Origin: Halichondria panicea
Lineage: Eukaryota; Porifera; Demospongiae; Suberitida; Halichondriidae
DNA: 64,000 nt
Direction: 5' to 3'
NCBI RefSeq assembly: GCF_963675165.1
Contig: NC_087389.1
Coordinates: 4,214,830 to 4,278,829, forward strand
The notes under the pieces are model-generated. The model saw nothing but the letters and a program-made list of their open reading frames with translations. It made no database searches and had not been told where the DNA came from. This document shows, one piece after another, positions 9,536 through 60,912 of the stretch. Position 1 is the stretch's first letter. Every line of letters starts with the position of its first letter. Both the position numbers and the translations under genes were made by a program.

Positions 9536-10081
9536 CATTGTTCTTCAGAACAGACATATACATTTATATACATTTGCATAGACACACTCACTATCATTAT
9601 AAGTATAAATCTGCATGATGTATATAATTATGTAGTTCCTATATAGCTAGCAACTCAGACTTGTCAGCATAATTAATTTTAAAGTAACGTTAACTATCAG
9701 AAGCCATGCATGCAAGCTTCTGAATGTGTGGTGCAGGTTATACACTGGTACATGTAAAAGCAATGCAGCACAGAAACCAAGAATGTCATAATAATTATGG
9801 AAATATGGATAGTGCAGATGACTGTTTCAAGTTGTTCTTCATGCAGGGGCATTGTGCAGGCCACTTTTTTATTGCATCCTTTTAGTCTACATGAGTGTCA
9901 TTATACGCCCTTTTTATACTCTGAAATAGCTGTGATCCTCACCTCGTTAATCACATAGAAACAACGATACCTATATAAAGCACGACAATTAAGACTACAA
10001 TTCATAACGTAAAAAATAACACAGGTATAATGAAATATAGATGCATGGATTGCATGATTTGTTATCAGTTATACGTCACCG

Positions 10082-11704
10082 CTATGGTGTTTTTGAACAC
10101 TTCGGTGTGTAGTATTGTCTTGATACTGGGCAAAACATACCAGCTATAGTAGAAAATCCACTTATTGAATGCACGAGCACCTCTGATCTTGCCAGTAGCA
10201 GAAAATCAATCCACGTAGCCATGAAACCATCAACACCAGACAGTGTACTCACATCACCAGCTCCCTCCTTGAATGGAATGGCCACGTGTTGTAGTGTCAT
10301 GTTTAAAGACTTTACTCGATTGCTGTATTGTTTGGTCGCTAACAGTTTGACCTGGTAAGAATCTGTTGCTAAATATAGAGGAATTTTATTGGAAGACTTG
10401 TCTGACAAACGTAATGAGCAGTTAATTGTACTATACCATGTGTCTTCTTTGCGAAATATTTTCATTTTGTTAAAGTGACCATTTTCTTGATATTCAGTTC
10501 CATAAAATCCGGTTCGGATGTGAACACCGATATAGGATACATTAAATAATCCCATATTTTTCTGAGCTTCGTTTACCTTTCTTAACACATTTTGTGAGAA
10601 ACTGAATAAATATCGTAATAATTCACCTTGAACAAAAGAATGAGGCACTCTGTGCTTTTTGGAATTAAGCATTTTTAGCAATGAAAGTCTGGAGAGGATA
10701 TTGTGCTCGTCACAACGAAACAGTTGAGTTAGGCCTTTAGTAAAGGGTACAGGTAATGCAGTGCTAATTATAATGTGTTGCTGATCATCACTGTTTACAT
10801 CATTCATAAAACGAACACACTCTTTCCTTCCAATAAGTTTCTTTATAACATGTTTGTCGTTTATGATTTCTTGCTTGAAATTCCATTGAAGTTGATTTGG
10901 AGCAAGATGGCGAAACGTTTTCATACCAATTTCATCCCAGTCCAAAAACAGCACTCTGTTCGATGCTATAGCTAATAGTAGAACTTGCTGTATCCGATAA
11001 AACTGGTCCCCGATACCATGACATTGAACAGGATTGTTGCACACATAGCTTAATGTTCTTATGTTGGAATCTCCACTCTTCATTTTTTCTATCTGCTGGC
11101 TGTGAAATAGTGCATACTTCTGAAGTGATTTTTTGAAGGTGTTATAATTAACATTGGTGTGCCTACTTTTCGCAGCCTTCAAGCATGGAGTCAGACTGAT
11201 ATTGTCACTGTGGTTCTTTTGGGGCATGAGAGAACCACCATCATAGTTAGATCTAGCACTCAAATTTTCATGGCTCGTCTGTTCAGAAGGAATGCTTCTT
11301 TTTTCCCCGCCTAATATGCTCACCTCTATCCTCTCTTCTGAATTTTCACCACTATCTTTTGTAAGTAGATTATCTTCTCCACCAACAGAATAGTGCTGAT
11401 TGTTGAAATTCTCCTGGGAAATAAATGGTTCATTTGCATCTGTTGTATCGACTGTCGCAATCTCATCCACACCATGGAATGCCGCAATTTCAACAGCACT
11501 CTTATCTCTCTCCAGTGAATGTGGCTCTTTCTTTGAGAAGTCTATACTGCTTAGCACGAGACTTACACTTGAATCAATGCTCATAGCATGTCGTAGACTG
11601 AACTTGAATTTTGTTCCGATAAGTTGTTTATAACTCGTTACAATAGTCAACACCAGTATTCCGATGAGAACAATGAATCGCCTTCTGTACATGTACCTAG
11701 GCAT
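10082..11704 (-). CDS. Fucosyltransferase-like type II membrane protein, copy B (intact)
   Basis: The gene is a single exon of 540 residues. Residues about 10-27 form a signal anchor after a short basic tail (MPRYMYRRR), which predicts a Golgi type II enzyme. A Ser/Asn-rich stem of about 150 residues follows. The catalytic part has CHGIGDQFYRIQQVLLLA and NRVLFLDWDE near 240-275, VHIRTG near 393-398, PLYLATDS near 443 and a C-terminal FMATWIDFLLLARSEVLVHS block near 494. That order of motifs resembles the fucosyltransferase superfamily that has a basic HxR site for GDP-fucose (GT11/GT23/GT37/O-FUT type). The exact family is an inference. Copies C, D and E lie upstream in the same orientation, and copy A downstream. 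A GC-rich promoter segment is shared with the other copies. Confidence 0.75.
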   Translation of the reverse strand: MPRYMYRRRFIVLIGILVLTIVTSYKQLIGTKFKFSLRHAMSIDSSVSLVLSSIDFSKKEPHSLERDKSAVEIAAFHGVDEIATVDTTDANEPFISQENFNNQHYSVGGEDNLLTKDSGENSEERIEVSILGGEKRSIPSEQTSHENLSARSNYDGGSLMPQKNHSDNISLTPCLKAAKSRHTNVNYNTFKKSLQKYALFHSQQIEKMKSGDSNIRTLSYVCNNPVQCHGIGDQFYRIQQVLLLAIASNRVLFLDWDEIGMKTFRHLAPNQLQWNFKQEIINDKHVIKKLIGRKECVRFMNDVNSDDQQHIIISTALPVPFTKGLTQLFRCDEHNILSRLSLLKMLNSKKHRVPHSFVQGELLRYLFSFSQNVLRKVNEAQKNMGLFNVSYIGVHIRTGFYGTEYQENGHFNKMKIFRKEDTWYSTINCSLRLSDKSSNKIPLYLATDSYQVKLLATKQYSNRVKSLNMTLQHVAIPFKEGAGDVSTLSGVDGFMATWIDFLLLARSEVLVHSISGFSTIAGMFCPVSRQYYTPKCSKTP

Positions 11705-11908
11705 CCTGCAGAGAGATTACTTGTACCATGCATGCAGCATAGACATTACACATTTCATTACACTGGCAACTCTATAAGTACTTCCTAGTCCATAGCAACT
11801 CAGGCTTGCAGCAAATGATGAATGTTTACAATCAGAAGCCAAGCTTTCCTGTGTTTTGACACCTTGCCACACCGTGTGTGGGGGTATAAAATTATTGTGC
11901 TGAATAAA

Positions 11909-11924
11909 GGGGGCGGGGCGGGGC
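11909..11924. promoter_or_regulatory. GC-box cluster in the duplicated bidirectional promoter
   Basis: GGGGGCGGGGCGGGGC lies about 205 bp upstream of copy B and about 70 bp before the fossil receptor exon on the other strand. The equivalent GC-rich box recurs at about 16641-16651 (copy D) and 18665-18677 (copy E and the intact receptor). In these copies it follows CTGAATAAAGG. Position and conservation suggest a shared promoter element. Transcription factor identity is not known. Confidence 0.45.
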
Positions 11925-11992
11925 TGCTCATAAGAAGTGTTTTGAGACATAGACATAGCATGCTGTCTGTGTCCTGAGAGTGCCAGTGTACA

Positions 11993-12031
11993 ATGTGGAT
12001 AGTGGTGACTGTTTTGTTTTTGTTAGCCATT
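11993..12031 (+). pseudogene. Fossil signal-peptide exon of the L-domain receptor (unit B)
   Basis: The sequence from ATG at 11993 reads MWIVVTVLFLLAI and runs into GTAAGACT. It matches exon 1 of the receptor at 18741-18795 (MWRVVTVLSLLAI...), including the intron start, but lacks the last few codons. No later receptor exons follow. It sits opposite copy B exactly as the true exon sits opposite copy E. Confidence 0.75.
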
Positions 12032-12487
12032 GTAAGACTGCTTGGTTTGTATATACCGTATAACGCGGGTATATATATTTTGAGGGTATACATGTCTAAT
12101 GTATACCACACCATGACATTATATAACTATGTATTTCCTAAGTTATTTTCATGAAAATTGCAATTGTCCAACATATTATAATTATGGTGTAAAGCGTATG
12201 TAAACAAATCTAGTGTCTAAATAATTATAGTCTATAGTAAATTATGATGATGGACCATTTACTGAATGAAGCCATGCAGCGTGCATGCAATGTCATATTA
12301 TAAAATAGTGTGACCTGTATTGCATTTTTATCCCTTTTTTTAGGAGCGTCATTATATCTACACCATTTTTTACTCCTCCATTATTATATTTTGTTAATCA
12401 CATGGAAACCACGATACTATATCCCTATAAAGACTACGATTCATATAACGTAAACTGGGTATAATTATAGCATGGATGTGTGCATAA

Positions 12488-14050
12488 TTATATTTGTCCT
12501 GCGATGGTGTTTTGGAACACTTTAGTGTGTAGTATTGTCTTGATACTGGGCAAAACATACCAGCTATGCATGAGCACCTCTGATCTTACCAGTAGCCGAA
12601 AATCAATCCATGTAGCCATGAAACCATCAACACCAGACAGTGTACTCACATCACCAGCTCTCTCCTTGAATGGAATGGCCACGTGTTGTAGTGTCATGTT
12701 TAAAGACTTTACTCGATTGCCATATTGTTTGGTTGCTAACAGTTTGACCTGGTAGGAATCTGCATGTTGCTAAATATAGAGGAATTTTATCAGGAGACTT
12801 GTCTGACAAACGTAACGAGCAGTTTAGCGTACTGTCGGTACTATGTGTTTTCCTTTTGAAATATCTTCATCCTGTTAAAGTTCCCTATAGATTTTCTTGA
12901 TATTGAGTTCCATAAAATTCGGTTAATAAGGTTCGAATGTGAACGCCGATATAGGATACATTAAAAATTCTCATGCTTTTCTGAGCTTTGTTCACCTTTT
13001 TTAACACATCTTGTGAAAATCGTAATAATTCACCTTGAACAAAAGAATGAGGCACTCTGTGCTTTTTGGAAGTAAGTATTTTTACCAATAAAAGTCTGGA
13101 GAGGATATTGTGCTCGTCACAACGAAACAGTTGGGTTAGGCCTTTAGTAAAGAGTACAGGTAATGCATGCAGTGCTGATTATAATGTGTTGCTGATTATC
13201 ACTGTTTACGTCATTCATAAACTGAACACACTAGCTCTTTCCTTCCAATAAGTTTCTTTATAACATGTATGTCGTTTATAATTTCTTGCTTGAAACTCCA
13301 TTGAATTCGATTTGGAGCAAGATGGCAAAACGTTTTCATACCAATTTCATCCCAGTCCGAAAACAGTACTCTGTTCGATGCTATAATTATAGCCAATAGT
13401 AGAACTTGCTGTATCCGATAAAACTGGTCCCTAATACCATGACATTGAACAGAATTGTTGCACACGTAACTTAATGTTCTTATGCTGGAATCTCCACTCT
13501 TCATTTTTTCTATCTGCTGGCTGTGAAATAGTGCATACGTCTGAAGTTATTTTTTGAAGGTGTTATAATTAACATTGGTGTGCCCGCCTTTCGCAGCCTT
13601 CAAGCATGGGGTTAGACTGATATTGTCACTGTGGTTCTGTTGAGGCATAAGAGAACCACCATCATGCATAGTTAGCACTCAAATTGTCATGGCTCGTCTG
13701 TTCAGAAGGAACGCTTCTTTTCTCCCCACCTAGTATGCTCACCTCTATCCTCTCTTCTGAATTTTCCCCACTATCACCAACAGAATAGTGCTGATTGTTG
13801 AAATTCTCCTGGGAAATAAATTGTTCATTTGCATCTGTTGTATCGACTCTGTTGCAATCTCATCCACACCATGGAATGCCGCAATTTCAACAGCACTCTT
13901 ATCGCTCTCCAATGAATGTGGCTCTTTCTTTGAGAAGTCTATACTGCTTAGTATGAGACTTACACTTGAATCAATGCTAACTTGGTACAATAGTCAACAC
14001 ACCAATATTCCGATGAGAATGATCAATCGCCTTCTGTGCATGTACCTATA
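12488..14050 (-). pseudogene. Fucosyltransferase-like copy C, frameshifted
   Basis: The copy is nearly full length and close to copies B and D. It is broken by several small insertions and deletions: +4 at about 12760 (TCTGCATGTT), +4 at 13165 (AATGCATGCAG), +4 at 13230 (CACTAGCTCT), +6 at 13381 (CTATAATTATAG) and +4 at 13664 (CATCATGCATAG), plus deletions near 12570 and 13015. The signal-anchor start is also damaged. Fragments of the family motifs are found in different frames (GIRDQFYRIQQVLLL, YIGVHIRT, ATWIDF). Confidence 0.85.
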
Positions 14051-14641
14051 GGCATCCTGCAGAAAGATTATTTGTACCGTGCATGCAGCATAGACATTAC
14101 ACATTTCATTATACACTGGCAACTCTATAAGTACTTCCTAGTCCATATAGCAACTCAGGCTTGCAGCAAATGGTTTACAATCAGAAGCCAAGCTTTTCTG
14201 TGGTTGCTGCTGCCACATCGTTTATTGTTATTTGGTCTTGTTCGTCATTTTTAGTATTTTATGAGCATGCGCAGTGAGCTAGTGAAGCTCGCAACCATTA
14301 TAGGAAACATGCATGGAAGAAGATACGAATTGTTGTCTTGCACTGAAAATCAGAGTCATGTGAAATTCGCCTCCTCGGCGGCCTGCGGGAGGCTATAACC
14401 CCCCCATGTTTTGTCCCTTGCATGTACCTATATAATTACTATTATAGCAACTCATGCAGGCTTGCTATCAAATTAATGACTAAAATGTTAATATACAATC
14501 ATGTATATGCAGTCAGAAGCCACGCAAGCTTTCCTGTGTGGTGTGAGTTCAGTGTACAACTAATTATGCCTCGAACACTAGTTATGATGGTGGGCCATTA
14601 CAGTAACTGAATGAAGCCAGCGTGCATGTAATGTCAAATAG

Positions 14642-14690
14642 TGTGGAGAGAGTGGTGACTGTTTTGTTCTCACTGCCTTATGCCACCGGC
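14642..14690 (+). pseudogene. Fossil receptor exon 1 (unit C)
   Basis: GTGGAGAGAGTGGTGACTG and the following TTTTGTTCTC...GCCTTATGCC match exon 1 of the receptor (TGGAGAGTAGTGACTGTTTTG, GCCTTATCAGC). The ATG is lost and no GT donor is kept. The preceding GAATGAAGCCAGCGTGCA also matches the leader at 18723. A similar fossil lies at 16679-16720 in unit D. Confidence 0.6.
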
Positions 14691-14825
14691 CTATATTTTT
14701 TTAGGAGCGTCATTATATATGCACCCTTTTTTACTCCTCCATTGTTAGTCACATGGAAACAATAATTCACCGAAAGACTACGATTCATAATCATAACGTA
14801 AAACTGGGTAGCACGGATGTGTGCA

Positions 14826-16451
14826 TTATTTGTCCTGTGATGGTGTTTTGGAACACTTTGGTATGTAGTATTGTCTTGATACTGGGCAAAACATACCAGC
14901 TATAGTGGAAAACCCACTTACTGAATGCACGAGCACCTCTGATCTTGCCAGTAGCAGAAAATCAATCCACGTAGCCATGAAACCATCAACACCAGACAGT
15001 GTACTCACATCACTAGCTCCCTCCTTGAATGGAATGGCCACGTGTTGTAGTGTCATGTTTAAAGACTTTACTCGATTGCCATATTGTTTGGTTGCTAACT
15101 GTTTGACCTGATAGGAATCTGTTGCTAAATATAGAGGAATTTTATCAGGAGACTTGTCTGACAAACGTAATGAGCAGTTTAGCGTACTGTACCATGTGTC
15201 TTCCTTTCGAAATATCTTCATCTTAAAGATACGTGGATCTATACCTAAATTTTCTTGATATTGAGTTCCATAAAATCCGGTTCGAATATGAACGCCGATA
15301 TAGGATACATTAAAAATGCTCATGCTTTTCTGAGCTTCGTTCACTTTTCTTAAAACATCTTGTGAGAAACTGAATAAATATCGTATTAATTCACCTTGAA
15401 AAGAATGAGGCACTTTGTGCTCTTCTGAAATATTACCAAGTATTTTTACCAATGAAAGTCTGGAGAGGATATTGTGCTCGTCACAACGAAACAGTTGAGT
15501 TAGGCCTTTAGTAAAGGGTACACGTAATGCAGTGCTAATTATAATGTGTTGCTGATCATCACTGTTTACATCATTCATAAACTGAACACACTTTTTCATT
15601 CCATTAATATTCTTTATAACATGTTTGGCGTTTATAATTTTTTGCTTGAAATTCCATTGAATTTGATTTGGAGCAAGATGACGAAACGTTTTCATACTAA
15701 TTTCATCCCAGTCCAAAAACAGCACTCTGTTCGATGCTATAGCTAATAGTAGAACTTGCTGTATCTGATAAAACTGGTCCCCGATACCACGACATTGAAC
15801 AGGATTGTTGCACACGTAACTTAATGTTCTTATGTTTGAATCTCCACTCTTTATTTTTTCTATCTGCTGGCTGTGAAATAGTGCATACGTCTGAAGTGAT
15901 TTTTTGAAGGTGTTATAATTAACATTGGTGTGCCTACTTTTCGCAGCCTTCAAGCATGGGGTTAGACTGATATTGTCACTGTGGTTCTGTTGAGGCATAA
16001 GAGAACCACCATCATAGTTATCACTCAAATTGTCATGGCTCGTCTGTTCAGAAGGAATGCTTCTTTTTCCCCCACCTATAATGCTCACCTCTATCCTCCC
16101 TTCTGAATTTTCCCCACTATCTTCTCCACCAACAGAATGGTACTGATTGTTGAAATTCTCTTGTGAAATAAATGGTTCATTTGCATCTGTTGTATCGACT
16201 GTCGCAATCTCATCCACACCATGGATTGCCACAATTTCAACAGCACTCTTATCTCTCTCCAGTGAATGCGGCTCTTTCTTTGAGAAGTCTATACTGCTTA
16301 GTACAAGACTTACACTTGAATCAATGCTCATAGCATGTCGTAGACTGAACTTGACGTTTGTTCCGATAAGTTGCCTATAACTCGTTACAATAGTCAACAC
16401 CAGTATTCCGATGAGAACAATGAATCGCCTTCTGTACATGTACCTAGGCAT
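14826..16451 (-). CDS. Fucosyltransferase-like type II membrane protein, copy D (intact)
   Basis: The gene is a single exon of 541 residues and a close paralogue of copy B. It has the same signal anchor (residues about 10-27), acidic/Ser stem, GIGDQFYQIQQVLLLA block, VHIRTG, PLYLATDS and C-terminal ATWIDFLLLARSEVLVHS. It differs from B by small in-frame changes, for example QENLGIDPRIFKMK in place of QENGHFNKMK after the HIRTG block, and a shorter stem. Catalytic-type blocks are all kept, so it is probably functional. Predicted role is Golgi glycosylation with GDP-fucose as the likely donor (inference). Confidence 0.75.
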   Translation of the reverse strand: MPRYMYRRRFIVLIGILVLTIVTSYRQLIGTNVKFSLRHAMSIDSSVSLVLSSIDFSKKEPHSLERDKSAVEIVAIHGVDEIATVDTTDANEPFISQENFNNQYHSVGGEDSGENSEGRIEVSIIGGGKRSIPSEQTSHDNLSDNYDGGSLMPQQNHSDNISLTPCLKAAKSRHTNVNYNTFKKSLQTYALFHSQQIEKIKSGDSNIRTLSYVCNNPVQCRGIGDQFYQIQQVLLLAIASNRVLFLDWDEISMKTFRHLAPNQIQWNFKQKIINAKHVIKNINGMKKCVQFMNDVNSDDQQHIIISTALRVPFTKGLTQLFRCDEHNILSRLSLVKILGNISEEHKVPHSFQGELIRYLFSFSQDVLRKVNEAQKSMSIFNVSYIGVHIRTGFYGTQYQENLGIDPRIFKMKIFRKEDTWYSTLNCSLRLSDKSPDKIPLYLATDSYQVKQLATKQYGNRVKSLNMTLQHVAIPFKEGASDVSTLSGVDGFMATWIDFLLLARSEVLVHSVSGFSTIAGMFCPVSRQYYIPKCSKTPSQDK

Positions 16452-16678
16452 CCTGCAGAGAGATTACTTGTATACCATGCATGCAGCATAGACATTACAC
16501 ATTTCATTACACTGGCAACTCTATACCTAGTCCATAGCAACTCAGGCTTGCAGCAAATGATTGAATGTTTACAATCAGAAGCCAAGCTTTCCTGTGATTG
16601 CTGACACGTACACCTTGCCACATAGAACAGCTGAATAAAGGAGGCGGGGCTGCTCATGACTCATGAGAATTTTGATAG

Positions 16679-16720
16679 CGTGGAGAGTGGTGACTGTTTT
16701 GTTCTCGCTGCCTTATGCCA
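16679..16720 (+). pseudogene. Fossil receptor exon 1 (unit D)
   Basis: GTGGAGAGTGGTGACTGTTT followed by TGTTCTCGCTGCCTTATGCC matches the receptor signal-peptide exon at 18741 but has no start codon or donor site. It lies upstream of copy D on the opposite strand, as in units B, C and E. Confidence 0.6.
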
Positions 16721-16892
16721 CCTGTATTGCATTTTTATCCTTTTTTTAGGAGTGTCATTATATCTACACCCTTTTTTTACTCCTCCATTATTATATTTTG
16801 TTAATCACATGGAAACAACGATACTATATACCTATAAAGACTACGATTCATATATAACGTAAACCGGGTATATAGCACGGATGTGTGCATAA

Positions 16893-18440
16893 TTTTGTGA
16901 GAAACTGAATAAATATCGTATTAATTCACCTTGAACAAAAGAATGAGGCACTTTGTGCTCTTTTGAAATAATTATTACCAAGTATTTTTACCAATGAAAG
17001 TCTGGAGAGGATATTGTGCTCGTCACAACGAAACAGTTGGGTTAGGCCTTTAGTAAAGGGTACATGTAATGCAGTGCTGATTATAATGTGTTGCTGATCA
17101 TCACTGTTTACATCATTCATAAAACGAACACACTCTTTCCTTCCAATAAGTTTCTTTATAACATGTTTGTCGTTTATAATTTCTTGCTTGAAATTCCATT
17201 GAATTCGGTTTGGAGCAAGATGGCGAAACGTTTTCGTACCAATTTCATCCCAGTCCAAAAACAGCACTCTGTTCGATGCTATAGCTAATAGTAGAACTTG
17301 CTGTATCCGATAAAACTGATCCCCAATACCATGACATTGAACAGGATTGTTGCACACGTAACTCAATGTTCTTATGTTGGAATCTCCACTCTTCATTTTT
17401 TCTATCTGCTGGCTGTGAAACAGTGCATACTTCTGAAGTGATTTTGAAGCTGTTATAATTAACATTGGTGTCCAGGCTGTGCCTGCCTTTCGCAGCCTTC
17501 AAGCATGGAGTTAGACGTACTGATATTGTCACTGTGGTTCTTTTGAGGCATGAGAGAACCACCATCATAGTTTGAACTCAAATGTTCTTTGTTTTCATGG
17601 CTCGTCTGTTTAAAAGTAACGATTCTTTTTCCCCCACCAAATATGCTCACATCTATCTTCCTTGAATTTTCGCCACTATCTTTTGTAAGTAGATTATCTT
17701 CTCCACCAACAGAATGGTGCTGATTGTTGAAATTCTCTTGGGAAATAAATTGTTCATGATCATTTGCTTCTTCTACAGTTCAGTAGATGTGTGTAGATGA
17801 ATGACTGAACTACAACATATCCAAAAATGTTTCCATGGAAACATAAGGTGGTGGGTTTGTGGTGATTAATAGAACAACAGCAAATTGTTATAGTCTAGGA
17901 CCTTAGCTGTACAAGATTACTGTTTTATTACTCTAACCGATTACCCACTATAACAATTTGCTGTTGTTCTATTAATCACCACAAACCCACCACCTTATGT
18001 TTCCATGGAAACATTTTTGGATATGTTGTAGTTCAGTCATTCATCTATACACGGGTATCAACACCATTTCTTAGAAATGCTCCAATCAAAAGATATATTT
18101 ACATTTAAGTACAACTACTCACACATTTGTGGTAATCTACTCTCTAGACTAAATGAACTGTAGATCGTCTGTCTCAATCTCATCCACACCAGAAGGCATT
18201 TGGATTGCCACACTGTCAACAGTACCCTTATCTCTCTCTGGTAATGTGGTTCTTTCTTTGAAGAGTCTACACTGCTTAGTACGAGACTTAATGCCACACT
18301 TGAATCAATACTCATAGCACCTCATAGACTGAACTTAAAGTTTCCAATAAGTTGCCTATAACTCGTTACAATAGTCAACACCAGTATTCCGATGAGAATG
18401 ATCAATCGCCTTCTGTGCATGTACCTAGGCTGAGTAGGCA
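16893..18440 (-). pseudogene. Fucosyltransferase-like copy E, 3'-truncated and interrupted by a hairpin element
   Basis: The N-terminal and central parts are recognisable, from the signal anchor (about 18300-18440) to the VPFTKGLTQLFRCDEHN block. The C-terminal third with HIRTG and ATWIDF is deleted: the 3' flank shared by the other copies (to about 16892) joins directly to the coding block that in copy D lies near 15360. A foldback element at 17791-18052 sits in the stem region. Small insertions (+4 at 17515, +4 at 16970, +6 at 17753) add further breaks. Its promoter faces the intact receptor gene. Confidence 0.85.
17791..18052. mobile_element. Foldback/MITE hairpin inside copy E
   Basis: A left arm (about 17791-17893) and a right arm (17948-18052) are almost perfect reverse complements of about 100 bp. 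They contain TTTCCATGGAAAC and CCACAAACCCACCACC and are separated by about 54 bp. There is no coding capacity. It interrupts the stem region of copy E and is absent at that place in copies B, C and D. Confidence 0.9.
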
Positions 18441-18740
18441 TCCTACACTGCCGCAAAGATAGTACAGTATGTAGATGTACCATGCAGGCAGTTCATTACA
18501 CTGGACACTGAAAACTCTTCCTATCTCTAGCAAATGATTGAAAGCCAAGCTTTTCCTGTGGTATTGTCTACGGCAAGCCATAGGTATCTATGGGCAAGCT
18601 GACATCTTGGGCTTGGGAATAAATTATAAACAATGCGCGCATGTAGCGCGCATGTGCTGAATAAAGGGGGTGGGGCTGTTCAGAGACCCAGCAGGCAGTG
18701 GTCAGCGTACTGTGATTGTTGTGAATGAAGCCAGTGTGCA

Positions 18741-26711: not shown

Positions 26712-37239
<10,528 letters not shown>

Positions 37240-44096: not shown

Positions 44097-46389
44097 GATA
44101 AATTTATCCTCTCACGTTCACAGAAAGTAATATACAACAGCTAAGAACGACCACGTACCACATGACCATAATGAACTCATTAATTAACTCGTGCATGAAT
44201 ATCATTGAAGAATCGTATGAGAACATAATTATCATTGAAGAGAGAAAACTATAAGTTTGTGATTGTTGGACATAAATAAATTATGCTATTCAACCAATTT
44301 TTCAACCACCACTTGATAGATACAAGGAAAGGTGTACGAGTGGATACGATTATAGATCTACTAATGTCTTTTCGAGGTACCTCCTTCTGCGGCCAGTCTC
44401 AGCAAGCATTAGCAGTTGTAACTGAACTTCTCCAGAGTTGGCTGATTTGGAACTCCAGTTCGGTGACAGAGGTTCTGAGTTCTGAGTTCTATGGGTGTGT
44501 CAATAGGGTTGCTACGATGCTAAAAGTGAAGATCATTCAAAGCAGTACGTACTGTGCTATATACATCCTCAATCCCATGCAGGGCTAAGTGACTGAAAAT
44601 ATATAGTGTGCTGTAATATTAACAATATAGATTTGCTATAATATTGTAACAATGTTCAATGCGATAATATAGTTCCTTTTAGGATGAAAGATCTCACCGA
44701 CTCCATTTTGCAGTAAAATTTGTTACTGAAAAACCTCGAAGAGATATGCGAATATTAGAACCCATGAACATTTCTGCTGAGGGCTCTGGAGCCAATTAAG
44801 AGCGAAAATTTGCATCCGCGAAAATTTCCCGCTACATGTATACATACGGTAGGTGCATGTATTTCAATGCATTCTTAAAATATAAAGGTCATGCATCCTT
44901 CTTGAGCAATAGCTTGAACTGTAATTATAAGGTGTTAAAGGGTTTATTTTACAAAAGGTAATTTCTCTACTCGGGTGCTGGAGTTTTGAGAGTCCTCATT
45001 ATTGTAAAATTAAAACGAATTCACTTAAATGACAAAAATATTGTGGAATATCAACTTCTTCAAATTCTGCATATAGATCTAGTACAAAAAACATTGTAAT
45101 TGTTCATTAGTTCAAAAAAGTTAAACAAACAGAAAGGAGCCACGCTTGACGGTACTAAGACTCCAAAGCGACGGCAGAAACACAGAAGCTGCATGCTCTC
45201 CAACAAGATGGCTATAAGCCTCCATGCATGGGTCTATGGGCGTGGTTTAGTTTTATCCAAGAAGAGTTTGCAACTGCAGCGAGGGACGTCGAATGCACAA
45301 CGCTTGGACCAAGGAAGCTCCTGAGCATCTGTATAAGAGTCGACGTGTTGCTCAACTAACTCTTTGTGATGGCTGCAAAATTCGGCATAATTATAGACTT
45401 ATAAATCAGATGCACCCTGTATATTCTCCGCTACCAATCCATGGTTACATATCCACTCCATATAATTATTCTCTGCTACCATAGTTATTTATCCCTCGTC
45501 TACGCCTCGGAGTAAACGATAGCGGAGGATGTATTGGTGCATATAATTATATATATCCTCCTCGTATGCATGTGTGGTATATCCTATAATTATATACTTC
45601 TTTTACGGAGTTTAGAAGATGATATAGACACAGTCAACAATTAAAGAATAAAGGTATAGTCCATTAAAAGAAACTGCATGGAGCTGTATGCCTGTAACTA
45701 TAGCTTGACATGCACACACACAATCAGTACTGCGTGTATGTATACTCACAGCCCAGTGCCCCCTTGATTGACTGAGGGTGGACAGGTGTTTAGTTGGTCT
45801 CCTTCATACACACAGCCCAATGCCCCGCCCCCTTGATTGACTGAGGGTGGACAGGTGTTATAGTTGGTCTCCTTCATATACACACAGCCCAATGCCCCCT
45901 TGATTGACTGAGGGTGGACAGGTGTTATAGTTGGTCTCCTTCATATTCAGATCAACAACCAGTTTCAACTTAAGAGGTTATGCATGGTTCCTACGCAACC
46001 ATCGCATTACAAAAGCGCTTATAATTATGTCTATTGTCATAAAATTACGTTCGCTGGGTCCATTTTCTTCAAAACAATATAAAACAACAACTATACTTTT
46101 CCTCAAGACAAAAAAAGAATGTATACTCATGCAATGACACATTGTAATGACTCTCCTATTTTTTATTTCATGAGGTCCCAGTAAGCCACAACACACTATG
46201 CTATGCATGGCCACGAATATATCTCCTGACTGCTTATAATTATAGCTCCTCTTCCATAACTTTAACACTCTATTTTATAAGTGAAGAAAAAGCATGCCCG
46301 AGGCATTTATAGTGTCACGGTGTTTGAACACTTACTATATATAAATTATGTGCATTATACATTATAATGATGACTCTAGAAGATATAAG
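44097..46389. other. Gene-free spacer with repeats
   Basis: No supported gene. The 101-codon open frame at 44283-44588 lacks any recognised feature. A piece at about 44800-44860 (GCGAAAATTTCCCGCTACAT near a GTATACATACGGTA) resembles the ends of the MITE beside AHCYL exon 1. The repeat shared with 39200-39330 and a three-unit tandem repeat are listed separately. Confidence 0.6.
45748..45950. repeat. Three tandem units of 64-72 bp
   Basis: Each unit contains CACAGCCCA, TGCCCCCTTGATTGACTGAG, GGTGGACAGGTGTT and GTTGGTCTCCTTCATA. Units differ by TA insertions (GTGTTTAG versus GTGTTATAG; CATACACAC versus CATATACACAC) and by GCCCC in the second unit. Confidence 0.9.
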
Positions 46390-50699: not shown

Positions 50700-52980
50700 A
50701 GAGTTTCACAGCTACATCTACCATCTCACCATGCAGTTAGATGACGCAGCTTGGCATGATAGACATCTTCGAATTCTCCTTTGTTTAAAAATTACAATAG
50801 TATACAGTGGCTTATCAAAATAATCTGAGTCATTACCATTCGCAATAAGCTCCCATTGCAACTCATGTAGTGGTTTTGATGATCCTGTGCAAATTAACAC
50901 ATTTTAACATACATACATTGTGTATTGTATAGAACTGGGGAGGATGGAACCACTGTTTATTATTCAGACTGCTTTGTTTACTGCATATATACCTGAAGGG
51001 ACCTCTGACCTGTTGTCATGAATTGTGAAAGCTTTGCATGGAGTTCAATTTTACTTATATCAAGTGTGTTAGACTTACATTTTTCCATCACTCTCACAGC
51101 TGCCTTGTGTACGTGAAGGTGACTTGACTCTCATTTTTCTCAGTAGATCTACCACTGTACAGACCAGGCATTTATAGAGTATTTGTGCTGTTGGCTCATC
51201 TTGGATTTTAACTTCAGCAGAACTTGGTCTACTGGCAGCAAACTGGTGATGTTTACATAATTATAGATATCACCTAGATCTATGTGGTTTGCTGCATGCA
51301 TGTGGACATTTAACTTTTGATATAACATTAGCCACATTTAATAGACCTGGTTTCTGTCTCGGAAAAATTTCCGCTTTGATGGTGTGAGTGGTGCCACGGC
51401 AATGTTATAATTTATACCTACTATCAATGTCATCATACAGTTTATTCGGATATATATAATAGGTATGTTGAACTTGCATGACATGCAAAACATTGTCTTG
51501 TTACTACATCATCATAGACCTAGCTCTGATGCAAGCAATTCTAAAGAATTTTGCTCCAGTAACAAGCATATGGATAGAACCTTGCATTTGAGGCTTTGCG
51601 CTTGGCACTTTGTATAATAGATTTGCTATTGTGTAGATTTGTCTTTTATAGTACAGTGGGGCGGGGCGGCTTAAAGTGCTTTGATATTTCGTGGAGGAGT
51701 GAAGCAGCCTGCCTTGAAATTGCTACCCTTTCTGCTTTCTGCGCTTTATATTGCACGCTCGAGGAAAATCTGTTTCAGACCGCAAAAGTGGTAGGGGTAC
51801 AGGTCTAGTTTCTTTGGTTCAACAGTCTCGTGATAATTAAGCACAATTAATTAATGTGACAATGTTTGAAATCTAGAAGGCTGAGATGGATTGATGAATC
51901 CTCCCAGAGCAGTGACGGTGTTCTTGCAAAATTGCATTATTCTATACACTATATACATAGTAGCTTATGAACCACAAATCTTGTAGCATAATTTGATTCT
52001 TTTTCTTCCCATGGCATATATATATATTAAGTGAAGAGGTTTGTTCTATACAAACACCAACTTGACACACACTTTAATGGCTCAGAATTTCAGAAACTTT
52101 CTTGGGTGGTGGTCTACACTCTTATGTTATCTATAGGCGCATGCAGCTTTACCATTCCAATCATTGTGTATTGTATAGAACTGGGGAGGATCTATTTCTT
52201 CAAAGTAAGCAACTCATACGCTCCACTTAATTCACTTCTTGCACACAGTTTGTTCGGAGGATGGCTGTTTGGATCGTTGTAATTTGGTCGCAGGAGAGGA
52301 CTTGGAAATTGATGGCTAGGAACATAAGGAGACATGTGTCCAAAAGAGAATGTATCGAGGCTGGTGTCGTATATGGCTGGGGTACCAATGGCTTCGAGTG
52401 GCATGTACACAAGTTATGCCTGGAGTTTGGCTGAGACTTCTCAAAAGAGCTTCTGTGTCGATGATGCAAGAGTTGCCAAGATTTGCTTGCTTTTTGAGGA
52501 GAATGTTTCGTGCAGTGAGGTCACAATGTATGATTGGTGGCCGAGTGCAAAAAGACAACCTTTTGCAACATCATTCAGGCGTAAAACAATGAAATGTTCT
52601 TTGCCGGAATTGTCTCCAAGAAATCGTCAAGATTTTTGTCCATTATGAGAACAGGACTGAAGTTATCATCAAAAAGAAAAACCATAAAAGTTATATGTGG
52701 GCGTAAAACAATGAAACGTTCTTTGCCGGAATTGTCTCCAAGAAATCGTCAAGACTTTTGTCCATTACGCGAATAGGACTGAAGTTATCGTCAAAAAGAA
52801 AAACCATAAAGTTATATGTTTGGTTGATGCATTTGTGACATTAGCTCACACTCAGCGATGAATTGGTCAACGATATGTTGGACACCTTTGTTTAGCGGGT
52901 CAAGAAATGTCTCATGTATCTTCTTCCCTGCACAAGCTGCTCCGTAAAGCTGGAGCTCAACAACTGCCTTCCAATATTGG
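50700..52980 (-). pseudogene. Collapsed copy of the TKL-PH-TK kinase gene
   Basis: Pieces in gene order match the intact neighbour. Kinase 1 fragments lie at 52192-52980 (VHATRSHW/MPLEAIGTPAIYDTSLDTFS). A PH remnant is near 51995-52020 (the HGKKKN codons). Linker remnants occupy 51100-51930, and the first kinase 2 exon is at 50718-50890 (PLHELQWELIANG). Frameshifts, deletions and lost splice sites are everywhere. A 120-bp duplication is nested at 52574-52810. Confidence 0.85.
52574..52810. repeat. Tandem 120-bp duplication inside the kinase pseudogene
   Basis: The segment from GGCGTAAAACAATGAAATGT to CATAAAAGTTATATG recurs immediately, starting at about 52698. The copies differ at a few bases. 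It covers the codons for the kinase 1 ETIPAKD region. Confidence 0.85.
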
Positions 52981-57849: not shown

Positions 57850-59543
57850 ATGGTTGATCAAAGAGCTGGAGCTGGAGATCGAGTGTGGGGATGGGAAACA
57901 TTTCTCCAAGAAATGGAGACTTTCCTTACTACGGTAGATAGAGAAATCGATTATACTCAGTCTACTAGTTATGCCCAGTTCGTTATTGAGAGGTTTGAGG
58001 TTTGTATACATGCTCTATCTTCCCTTCGTGTACAAATTGAAGATGATGGCGATGATGAGACGATTGAAGTTTGCACGGCATTGAAGGAAATAATGGACAG
58101 TTGTGTGTTGCTCAAGACAATGTGGTACACTCGACTTGATGAGTTGGATGCACACACAGACGGAGGCTACCAAGTTCCCCAGGTTGCTAGGAGAGTAGGA
58201 CGTGGCCGTCCCCAGCTATTTATTTGTCAAGACCAGTTGGAATACCTATGTAGTTTAAATTTCACTTGGACTGAGATTAGTAAACTATTGGGTGTCTCTC
58301 GAATGACTATCTATAGAAGAAGAGGGGAGTTCGGCATTCTAGATGTTCATAGTGCTGCAAGAAGTATAAGTGACAGTGATCTACGTACAAAGCTCCAACA
58401 GGTGCGTCGAGAAATGCCAAATATGGGAGAGACACTGGTGATTGGGCGACTACGGTCATTGGGATATGCTGTCACTAGACAAAGGGTGCGTAATGCTATC
58501 CACGCAACCGATCCCCTGAATGCAGCTCTGAGATGGAGAGGAATCCTCACTGCTCGGCGCCCTTACTCTGTTCCCTCGCCCAACTCTCTATGGCACATGG
58601 GTAAGTCATATATAGGTGTTGTGTGACCAGGTTTATGGTTAATGTGTGTCAATTAAGTTTTAGATAAAGGAGCCCAGATGTGTGTACATGCATGTATATA
58701 GGTTGGAGCCTTATTATTATAGTAGTAGCAAGACTTGTGTATACAATACATGCATACTAATCATATCTTGTATTCGTACAGATGGCCACCACGCTTGTGA
58801 GATGGGGCATGGTAACGCACGGGGCTATTGACGGATATAGCAGACTCGTCGTGTTTCTTCGCTGTAGCAATAATAACACTGCCGAAACAGTTTATAATCT
58901 CTTCCTTTCAGCTGTCCAACGGTTTGGACTACCGTCAAGAATGCGATCTGACTACGGTGGTGAAAATTATCGTGTAGCAGCACATATGCTAGAGAGTAGA
59001 GGATATGACCGCAACAGCATGATAACTGGCAGTTCCGTGCACAACCAGCGGATTGAGCGCCTCTGGCGCGATATGCATCGTTGCGTAACAGTGATATTTT
59101 ACAAGTTATTCTATTACCTAGAGCAACATGGTTACTTGGATCCTGATAACATGTTTCATCGGTATTGTTTACAGTACGTCTATCTTCCACGTATCAACCA
59201 GTCACTGAAAGTATTTATGGAGGGTTGGAACTGTCATGGGGTTCAAACGGAACACAATCTAACACCACATCAATTATTTGTGCGGGGAGCACTTCAAATG
59301 CAGAGAAGAGGACTTCAAGCCCTAGACTTTTTCGAACATATTGATGAAATGTATGGTGTAGACGAAGAAATCAGTACGGGTGATGACGATTACACAGTTC
59401 GTATACCCCCAATTGGTCTTGCATTGTCTGATGAGAATATGGCTTTGTTGAAGGAAAGAGTAAATCCTCTGGCAGACAGCGATAATTTTGGGATAGAACT
59501 GTATGTTGAAACACTTACTTTTTTACGTACTTTGATTAACTGA
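57850..59543 (+). pseudogene. Integrase-like (DDE) transposase with one intron, frameshifted
   Basis: Exon 1 (57850-58600) encodes about 250 residues, with a helix-turn-helix (FTWTEISKLLGVSRMTIYRR) and a second winged-helix-like part. The intron has GTAAGT and CAG ends. Exon 2 (58782-59543) encodes an integrase core: MVTHGAIDGYSRLVVFL, RSDYGGEN and HNQRIERLWRD, the last holding the Glu. Splicing gives LWHMDGHH and then a frame that does not continue; two bases appear to be missing near 58793, between DGHH and LVRWGMV. The first catalytic Asp is next to this break. The type resembles integrase-core genes common in cnidarians and fishes, possibly IS3EU-like. No flanking inverted repeats were identified. 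An ATG also exists at 57826. Confidence 0.72.
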
Positions 59544-59613
59544 GATTTGTTAATGAATGTGCAGTGCGTAATGCCAGTAATAATTACAAATTTATATCCA
59601 AGTTGAATGATGG

Positions 59614-59765
59614 TACAGTGCATGGAACCCCTCTATAACGGACACCTTTAATTGGAGAACAAAAAGTTTTGGCCGTTGTTAAGGGGTTGTTTTGTATGCA
59701 AACTTTTGGGACCTGGGTGTCTGGCCGTTATGTCGCAGTTGGCCGTTAAGAGGGGTTCCACTGTA
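59614..59765. mobile_element. MITE with TA target site and about 30-bp inverted ends
   Basis: TA|CAGTGCATGGAACCCCTC on the left matches TA|CAGTGGAACCCCTCTTAA from the right end on the other strand. The element is about 150 bp and encodes nothing. The left end has an extra CATG (CAGTGCATGGAA versus CAGTGGAA). Confidence 0.85.
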
Positions 59766-60255
59766 TATAATTTTTATCATTTATGTTAATGAATGTCTGT
59801 CAGATGCAGGTACACATAATTATATAGACACACTATAAAGAGTATGACTAATATTATAGTAGTACTGCCAATACACAATGTTAGGACGTATATTATTATT
59901 ATACTGGAATAGGTTGCAAGTACGTAGCCACTGTATATACACTTGGTAGATATTGTCATATAGTTTTACAGATGCTGTTTGTTAGTCTGAGTCAAATTTC
60001 TCATTGGCTTGTGGCACCGTCTTCAATTATACCTGAATCCGGATAGAAAAACATTTGCAATGTGAAAAATTGCTACAATCCTATGTACAACCTACTGATT
60101 CATATAGCATTTGAACGTGGAACATTTGTGGAACAATCATAATTATTACATGCATGCTTGCAACATGATAATCATAAGCTCATGCAGATAACTATATAAT
60201 TATATCTTCACTGTGACAAATGCAAGCACATGCATGTACTACTTGCATGCATGTA

Positions 60256-60912
60256 TAGAAGGTCTTGCTAATTTTGCATTCATAAGTTATAGGTGTTATA
60301 TATAACAATTCTCCTGGGACCAAAGCTTGCATGCTTTTTATTGGACCTATATACCTACATCACTCAGTAATACAAAAATCACAGCGATGAATGCTTTACA
60401 ATACAATAACATCGTCATAAAGGTAATAATTATGGCCAAAAAACATTGACAGACATGCATGCAGTGTTATCAATATTGCAAACGTCAATAGCTGTCCATT
60501 CTCCACAAGTACTCGCTTGACAAACAAGCTCGGAACTCAGAAACAAACACTTGGTATGAAGGGTATGTTGAGGATAGAATCAGGGATGGTGCACAGGTGA
60601 GGGCAATGGGTCTACGTGAAGAACCGGTAAGAGCATTAAATTCTAGAGATATTTTCGAAGAGGAACACACCGAGCTGCCAGTAACGAAGCGCAGAAAAGT
60701 TCGCAATTCATCCAGTCCCATATTTCCTATAAATTGACGCAGATAACCTAAAACCCTATTCACATGTATTTTACACATAGTTATGTGGAAGGTCTTGCTA
60801 ATTTGATATGCTATCATTATAATAGCTGTTTTATAACAATTCTGCCTTTATACACATGTATATATACCAACCAAAGCTCACATGCACAGTATTTTGATTT
60901 TATAGGACCTAC
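60256..60912. repeat. Direct repeat of about 110 bp flanking the HECT-like fragment
   Basis: GAAGGTCTTGCTAATTT, TATAACAATTCT, CCAAAGCT and TAGGACCTA/TGGACCTA occur in the same order at 60258-60352 and 60788-60910. The copies are diverged and carry different small palindromic inserts. Confidence 0.65.
60485..60747 (-). pseudogene. HECT-like C-terminal exon fragment
   Basis: The last-exon-like frame reads YLRQFIGNMGLDELRTFLRF followed by VTGSS, then FNALTGSSRRPIALTC and SYQVFVSEFRACLSSEYLWR. This resembles the C-lobe of HECT-type domains found in invertebrate multi-copy and transposon-associated proteins. A TTTTAG acceptor precedes it. The catalytic Cys position would be within PIALTC. No upstream exons are recognised in the window, so it is called a fragment. 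The family assignment is tentative. Confidence 0.4.

Follow-up and report, generated by a model that had tools for sequence, protein, structure and literature searches.

What kind of process adds short palindromes to recently duplicated DNA? The question is raised by a 64 kb stretch of contig 13 of the sponge Halichondria panicea (from here on the window), in which neighbouring copies of a FUT8-like (alpha-1,6-fucosyltransferase-like) gene differ by small insertions that create a palindrome and repeat two target bases around it. The pattern is real, is present in several genome regions and was for the most part correctly described in the initial annotation of this DNA. It can be split into a probable strand-switch mutation class, in which the target bases W become W·rc(W)·W (two target bases, the reverse complement of those and the same bases again), and what look like transposon scars of a known type. 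We put the probability that two processes add these palindromes, namely a strand-switch inverted triplication responsible for the main class and Tc1/mariner-type scarring at TA, at slightly under one half.

The assembly comprises 131.5 Mb in 39 contigs, 17 of them large. The sample analyzed here consists of 254 kb, that is, the window and 19 stretches of 10 kb (17 spread over 17 contigs and two adjoining the window), so that contiguous sequence covers about 0.2% of one assembly, to which copies of repeat families were added. Duplicated pairs within the 254 kb were found by BLAST and aligned, and isolated insertions or deletions (indels) were classed over all equivalent placements. Indels longer than 30 or 40 bp, those with badly matching flanks, duplicates at the same site and microsatellite contexts were excluded before counting. 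A first strict pass covered 51 pairs (27 kb). A relaxed pass covered 214 pairs (66.7 kb aligned) and retained 336 indels after removal of 11 of 347 in microsatellite contexts. Null expectations for 4-bp indels came from random deletions and from random inserts, the latter being either 4-mers of the genome itself or 4-mers matched in composition.

The palindrome excess is concentrated in one length class. Outside microsatellites the relaxed pass gave 36 4-bp indels, six of which were tandem duplications, and 18 of the remaining 30 were palindromic against 8–9% in simulated random deletions or insertions (p = 2e-10, figured as 18/36). The pattern seen between the gene copies extends beyond the window. 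W·rc(W)·W accounted for 14 of the 18 palindromic events, or 14/30 of the non-tandem 4-bp indels, where 1–2% would be expected. The strict pass yielded 13 palindromic cases among 18 4-bp indels, and six parameter sets with identical contexts collapsed gave 17/27, 11/14, 12/13, 14/19, 15/22 and 11/12. In the cleanest set, pairs of at least 80% identity, 12/13 non-tandem 4-bp indels were palindromic, and at the strictest setting all six found outside the window were. Palindromic events came from 4–5 of the 20 stretches, because duplicated pairs occur in only some of them, and a good part lay in the window and a neighbouring stretch. The initial annotation had proposed a test on inserts of 2, 4, 6 and 8 bases; the excess proved strong at 4 bp and present at 6 bp (4/23 palindromic, p = 0.006), while at 8 bp one indel in 16 was palindromic (p = 0.18) and at 2 bp there was no excess, with five palindromes and no W·rc(W)·W among 25 non-tandem indels.

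The shape of the events is equally restricted. Writing each product as T-F-T, with T the repeated target, F the filler and t the shift length, the 30 non-tandem 4-bp indels were distributed as 0, 5, 17 and 8 over t = 0, 1, 2 and 3, compared with a null of about 56, 29, 12 and 4%, so that 25/30 had a t of 2–3. When t was 2 and T was not TA, the filler was exactly rc(T) in 10 of 12 events, with CA, TG, CT, AC or TT as T.

Are these events gains or losses? Three interspersed-repeat families (22, 22 and 35 copies) were polarized, each against its own consensus, over 41.8 kb with 739 substitutions. The copies were those in the sample together with 20, 20 and 33 of 39 further places listed for each family, which are the most similar places only, and 34 microsatellite events and 2 common events were set aside. 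Derived 4-bp insertions were palindromic in 10 of 11 cases (p = 2.6e-9 against 0.11) and derived 4-bp deletions in 0/2, which bears out the description of these events as insertions; it should be noted that the third family, C, is alignment-dependent, and some of its rows (near 293, 384 and 463 of the consensus) probably represent a single event in different placements. W·rc(W)·W was flagged in 8/11 insertions, five of which are also tandem duplications, and in 0/2 deletions. At 6 and 8 bp, 3/10 derived insertions and 0/7 deletions were palindromic. A palindrome already present was duplicated in 5 of the 10 palindromic 4-bp insertions, and a pre-existing palindrome may therefore favour the event. 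One palindromic insertion is common to 3 family copies and another to 5, which argues against assembly error and points to inherited DNA; the one carried by 5 copies has an AGCT-repeat context and could go back to several events. A tandem gene family on contig 10, largely conserved in the 8 of 28 listed places compared, contributed a single derived 4-bp insertion, again W·rc(W)·W.

Two further observations concern the same material. Deletions of 9 bp are in excess, making up 11/32 derived deletions of 5–13 bp, most with 0–1 base of microhomology (families A–C, L037–L109), and among pooled pair indels a length of 9 bp occurs 29 times, 8 bp 16 times and 7 bp 9 times; 9 bp is close to the length of an RNA primer. 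The contig 10 family itself (G000, 4.27–6.41 Mb), ankyrin-like/kinase-like by eye, has at least 28 places sharing a 96-bp stretch, many with identical scores.

In the window, all eight insertions originally singled out were recovered at their positions, by alignment of copies A–E and in the sequence itself. Six of them follow W·rc(W)·W and two belong to the TA class, in keeping with the proposed palindrome framed by two repeated target bases. The gene copies and insertions are as follows.

10060..11870, minus strand: copy B, FUT8-like (alpha-1,6-fucosyltransferase-like) gene, with an open frame at 10082–11716 (544 aa) that scores 28.9 bits for FUT8_N_cat (cut-off 27.6).
12480..14210, minus strand: copy C, with no frame of at least 120 aa; holds five of the eight listed insertions.
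14826..16620, minus strand: copy D, with an open frame at 14826–16463 (545 aa); carries the short allele at most sites, and its score for Pfam FUT8_N_cat, 18.7 bits, is under the cut-off.
16880..18580, minus strand: copy E, broken by an inverted-repeat insertion with arms at 17789–17894 and 17947–18052.
12761..12766: TGCATG in copy C, a W·rc(W)·W insertion with W = TG, seen in sequence and alignment.
13164..13171: TGCATGCA in copy C, a 4-bp insertion on an already present TGCA, which can also be taken for TGCA duplicated in tandem.
13231..13236: CTAGCT in copy C, a W·rc(W)·W insertion with W = CT, from the alignment.
13663..13668: CATGCA in copy C, a W·rc(W)·W insertion with W = CA, from the alignment.
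17515..17520: ACGTAC in copy E, a W·rc(W)·W insertion with W = AC, from the alignment.
17754..17762: TCATGATCA in copy E, a three-base W·rc(W)·W insertion with W = TCA, from the alignment.
11248..11255: TAGATCTA in copy B, a TA-class insertion (TA-GATC-TA), from the alignment.
13382..13391: TATAATTATA in copy C, a TA-class insertion, from the alignment.
12461..12468: ATAATTAT beside copy C, an insertion of the TA-AT-TA class.
16968..16975: ATAATTAT in copy E compared with copy D, an insertion of the TA-AT-TA class.
50730..50735: a W·rc(W)·W insertion with W = CA in a second region with a duplicated gene, whose paralogue lies in L028.
51035..51040: a W·rc(W)·W insertion with W = TG in the same second region (paralogue in L028).

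The repeat at 45198–45246, where a similar event had been suspected, contains a 4-bp palindromic tandem duplication called near 45230. The similar event suspected in one end of the MITE near 59614 is a candidate read from the sequence. Two other features of the window were recorded: the inverted-repeat insertion within copy E (17789–18052) has 106-bp arms that are 99% complementary, and a 27-bp tandem array at 31070–31393, with almost identical central units, is open in one minus-strand frame.

The same shape is found in single sequence. Hexamers in which F is rc(T) occur at 1.7–2.7 times the order-2 expectation for all 12 non-palindromic dinucleotides T. Their summed ratio is 2.13 in the sample, 2.32 in the window and, when the other loci are split in half, 2.00 and 2.11, compared with 1.15 for other fillers and 1.16 for F = reverse(T); an order-2 simulation gave 0.98 and 50 kb of E. 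coli 0.67, a weak control, being bacterial and mostly coding. For two-base W with four distinct orientations, W·rc(W)·W was counted 1081 times, the complement 573, the reverse 589 and the triple direct repeat 881 times. Overall, words of the (3,3) type show enrichment too (3.83 vs 1.43). Events and words alike favour CA/TG as W, and the length signal is less clear in words than in events. ATAATTAT was seen 171 times for 18 expected, TACATGTA 117 for 16 and CATGCATG 76 for 16, and the suggestion that the process helps explain the palindromic words of the non-coding DNA held up in these counts. In the event list W = CA seemed frequently to stand in a CAG context, an effect that disappeared in the words, G following CATGCA in 23% of cases and CA in 23%.

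How could two bases become six? We infer strand switching, in line with the earlier proposal that both strands are copied, which fits the majority class (14 of 18 palindromic events). A polymerase making a short patch would switch to the complementary strand, retrace the last two bases there (in some cases three), return to the first strand and go on, turning W into W·rc(W)·W. Nothing would be lost, and the net gain of 4 or 6 bp would amount to a micro inverted triplication. Enzyme, timing and strand are likewise inferred, and the setting we would prefer is a displaced 2–3-nt flap at a nick or Okazaki junction, because such a flap would fix the length and leave no spacer.

A second mechanism would account for insertions at TA. 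Elements of the Tc1/mariner type, which move by cut and paste, use TA as their target, and excision would leave behind TA with one or two bases from each terminus, for example TACATGTA. TA repeated on both sides, as in a Tc1/mariner footprint, was found in the events with T = TA and in the corresponding words. The fillers of these events are AT, CG, TC, ATAT and, at 11248, GATC; in the words, CATG (117 vs 16.3) and GATC (36 vs 3.4) are the two that stand out from the 16 palindromic four-base fillers flanked by TA. Symmetrical flanks are frequent (GTACATGTAC 25 vs 1.3, CATAATTATG 12 vs 0.8), as expected of elements with a preference for palindromic TA targets; in the part of the source available, such a preference is described for the Tc1/mariner element ZB, and Tc1/mariner scars are given as 2–4 bp (PMC7913693). 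TA is also the commonest outermost dinucleotide of inverted-repeat pairs (17/81). A resident candidate is an inverted-repeat element with CA…TG ends (CAGTAGAACC…, CAGTAGAACCTCGATT…), for which a first look gave 1107 candidates.

L011:7669–7971 and L026:8335–8637: inverted-repeat element, roughly 303 bp long, between TA flanks.

Over the element, the query and the 39 other candidates scored show 98–100% identity, and it therefore appears to have been amplified very recently. A scar of two bases per end would read TACATGTA, and the ends of this element would fit the filler CATG; no such match is proven for GATC or AT. The earlier proposal of transposon excision is in this way retained for the TA class, through the TA-flanked CA…TG element and the CATG filler, and leaves the majority class unexplained. 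Hairpin opening, which had been part of that proposal, is not needed here, as Tc1/mariner-type scars require none. Separately, positions 57862–60759 of the window hold an element whose open frame encodes an integrase core (rva_4, 247 bits); its second, inverted copy lies in the adjoining 10 kb, at L027:437–3341, and is 99.6% identical.

Several points weigh against this two-process explanation. On the side of strand switching, the DNA would have to turn very tightly for a copied flap to be sealed, and the one-base counterpart is absent (none of the 25 non-tandem 2-bp indels is W·rc(W)·W) though one would expect the shortest flap to arise often. F = rc(T) has the highest value in its row of the word matrix for CA and TG alone, and in the other rows there are fillers that match or exceed it (CCGCCC 3.3, ACCCAC 2.4, AGAAAG 2.2). 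For three-base W with four distinct orientations the complement filler was counted 239 times and W·rc(W)·W 150 times. Unequal fold-back words are enriched as well ((4,2) 3.37 vs 1.72, (2,4) 1.55 vs 1.16, (3,1) 1.53 vs 1.29), which counts against copying of equal lengths because such copying does not predict them. Some 4-bp events take neither form: ATT-G-ATT, AA-AT-AA, AA-CA-AA, TA-TC-TA and gtag. On the side of the TA class the weakest link is the source of AT, the commonest TA filler, for which no element with matching ends is proven here; GATC likewise lacks a proven matching element, and the inverted repeat of copy E runs on beyond its GA. Restriction to TA is also incomplete, since palindromic four-base fillers are enriched between AT (2.51) and CG (3.15) repeats, partly as overlapping words, and slightly between GC and CA/TG repeats. 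Finally, a FEN1 exon is present, so the condition of the yeast mutants discussed below is probably not reproduced. At C12:643157, 46 aa match solved structures of FEN1 (6e-19, for this stretch only), and the family match spans five stops, probably an intron; loss of FEN1 as the cause is accordingly a candidate that the sequence does not favour. Elsewhere on contig 13 (G000:C13:3752339-3866203), six open frames of 588–601 aa have a weak above-cut-off XPG_I match with equal or nearly equal scores and are perhaps a recently duplicated nuclease-like family.

The alternative that survives best, unlikely as we judge it, treats all events as excision scars: the flanks of an excised element would be sealed as hairpins and opened off-centre, leaving P-nucleotides between a 2–3-bp target duplication. 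A 2-bp duplication with one P-nucleotide added at either side reads exactly W·rc(W)·W, scars are strongly indicated in the TA class, the genome has many young short repeats with inverted ends, and the unequal fold-back words (4,2), (2,4) and (3,1) are somewhat enriched. However, among 81 outermost inverted-repeat pairs in the 254 kb, a small sample, equal flanking dinucleotides were seen in 4 (TG 2, GA 1, TT 1) where 4.9 are expected from the marginals, and elements with variable or non-palindromic 2-bp target repeats are, within that sample, not evident. A scan of 10/16 dinucleotides gave 6–26 pairs each for CA, TG, CT, GA, TT and AA flanks and 50 for AC, 41 of these starting GT (counts for TA, AT and GC are inflated by nesting, these dinucleotides being palindromic). 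In the word counts, (3,2) and (4,1) fold-backs show no enrichment over other fillers, and the unequal words are mostly weak, (4,2) being a clear exception. Hairpin opening, one of the sources originally considered, is on this evidence disfavoured for the majority class.

Joining of short-overhang breaks by a polymerase-theta-like pathway that copies nearby sequence in inverted orientation is a less probable explanation. Polymerase-theta-like joining produces short templated inserts in both orientations, and the odd events CTT-A-CTT, AGAG-CT-AGAG and AGTG-C-AGTG resemble imperfect fold-backs. End-joining, however, normally loses bases and gives mixed lengths, whereas the 4-bp class is clean, with 17 four-base indels against 4 three-base and 4 five-base indels in pairs of at least 80% identity.

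Ordinary slippage or small tandem duplication, with products that look palindromic because the genome is rich in palindromes, is very improbable. Tandem duplications do make up 6/36 of the 4-bp indels and 5/11 of the derived 4-bp insertions, all five palindromic. The early dismissal of slippage holds for most events, since 30/36 4-bp indels are not tandem, the insert not being a copy of adjoining sequence; moreover, tandem duplication of a random 4-mer is palindromic in only 11% of cases, and nulls built from the genome's own words still reach only 8–9%. Assembly or sequencing error, or an alignment artefact, is hardly credible, even though a single assembly was judged without reads and short indels are a typical long-read error, because six alignment settings agree, two palindromic insertions are common to 3 and 5 repeat-family copies and the words are enriched in single sequence with no alignment involved.

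The rule followed here by 4-bp insertions, W to W·rc(W)·W, can be counted in any genome. If it is an intrinsic error of replication or repair, strand switching could be followed simply at the scale of two bases, hairpin-forming and palindromic words that might otherwise pass for selected motifs would have a source in mutation, and motif discovery in such genomes would need a mutational background model. It is possible, if on balance doubtful, that this lineage harbours an intrinsic, transposon-independent mutator with 2–3-bp inverted triplication as its main output, which would dominate 4-bp insertions, reshape the genome's word content, seed hairpins and new palindromic binding sites and, together with the apparent 9-bp deletion excess, may report a distinctive step of lagging-strand maturation.

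In the open-access literature, as far as the text available goes, we recognized no description of an indel spectrum dominated by W·rc(W)·W events of 2–3 bp, and the parts of PMC7954356 and PMC7615360 available hold nothing at that scale. Short insertions in flies and primates (PMC2374710) are similar in that some primate inserts are templated by the reverse strand. In the portion available, that study puts about 80–90% of short insertions down to simple or complex tandem duplication and places the peak of reverse templates about 10 bp off, whereas here the 4-bp class is dominated by events templated on the adjoining 2–3 bp. P-nucleotides of V(D)J joining (PMC3528771, as far as available) likewise add 1–3 bases that inversely repeat the adjoining end; here, in contrast, no programmed cutting is known, the second W has to be explained separately and most inserts measure 4 bp. 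Footprints of Tc1/mariner elements, including Stowaway-like ones (PMC7913693 and PMC1925063, parts available), share TA repeats around a few terminal element bases and a palindromic AT-rich target. They would account for the TA class only, with excision as its putative source.

The small inverted triplication (SIT), described for FEN1/rad27-deficient yeast and tumours in the available part of PMC13334657, has the same order of duplicate, inverted copy and duplicate (the DUP/INV/DUP triplications of the yeast mutants) and is attributed there to template switching in Okazaki-fragment maturation. SITs have medians of 148/160/148 bp, spacers of about 30 bp and 6-bp junctions, with a smallest flanking duplicate of 7 bp; the events in the sponge differ in both size and spacer, having a W of 2–3 bp and no spacer, and a FEN1 exon is present. 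Palindrome-expanding template switches are also reported for FEN1/rad27-deficient yeast, and quasi-palindrome correction by nascent-strand switching resembles our events in that the insertion makes a longer perfect palindrome (PMC5677150, part available). Those switches correct or lengthen an inverted repeat that is already in place, whereas many targets here are plain dinucleotides, yet 5/10 derived palindromic 4-bp insertions do duplicate an existing palindrome.

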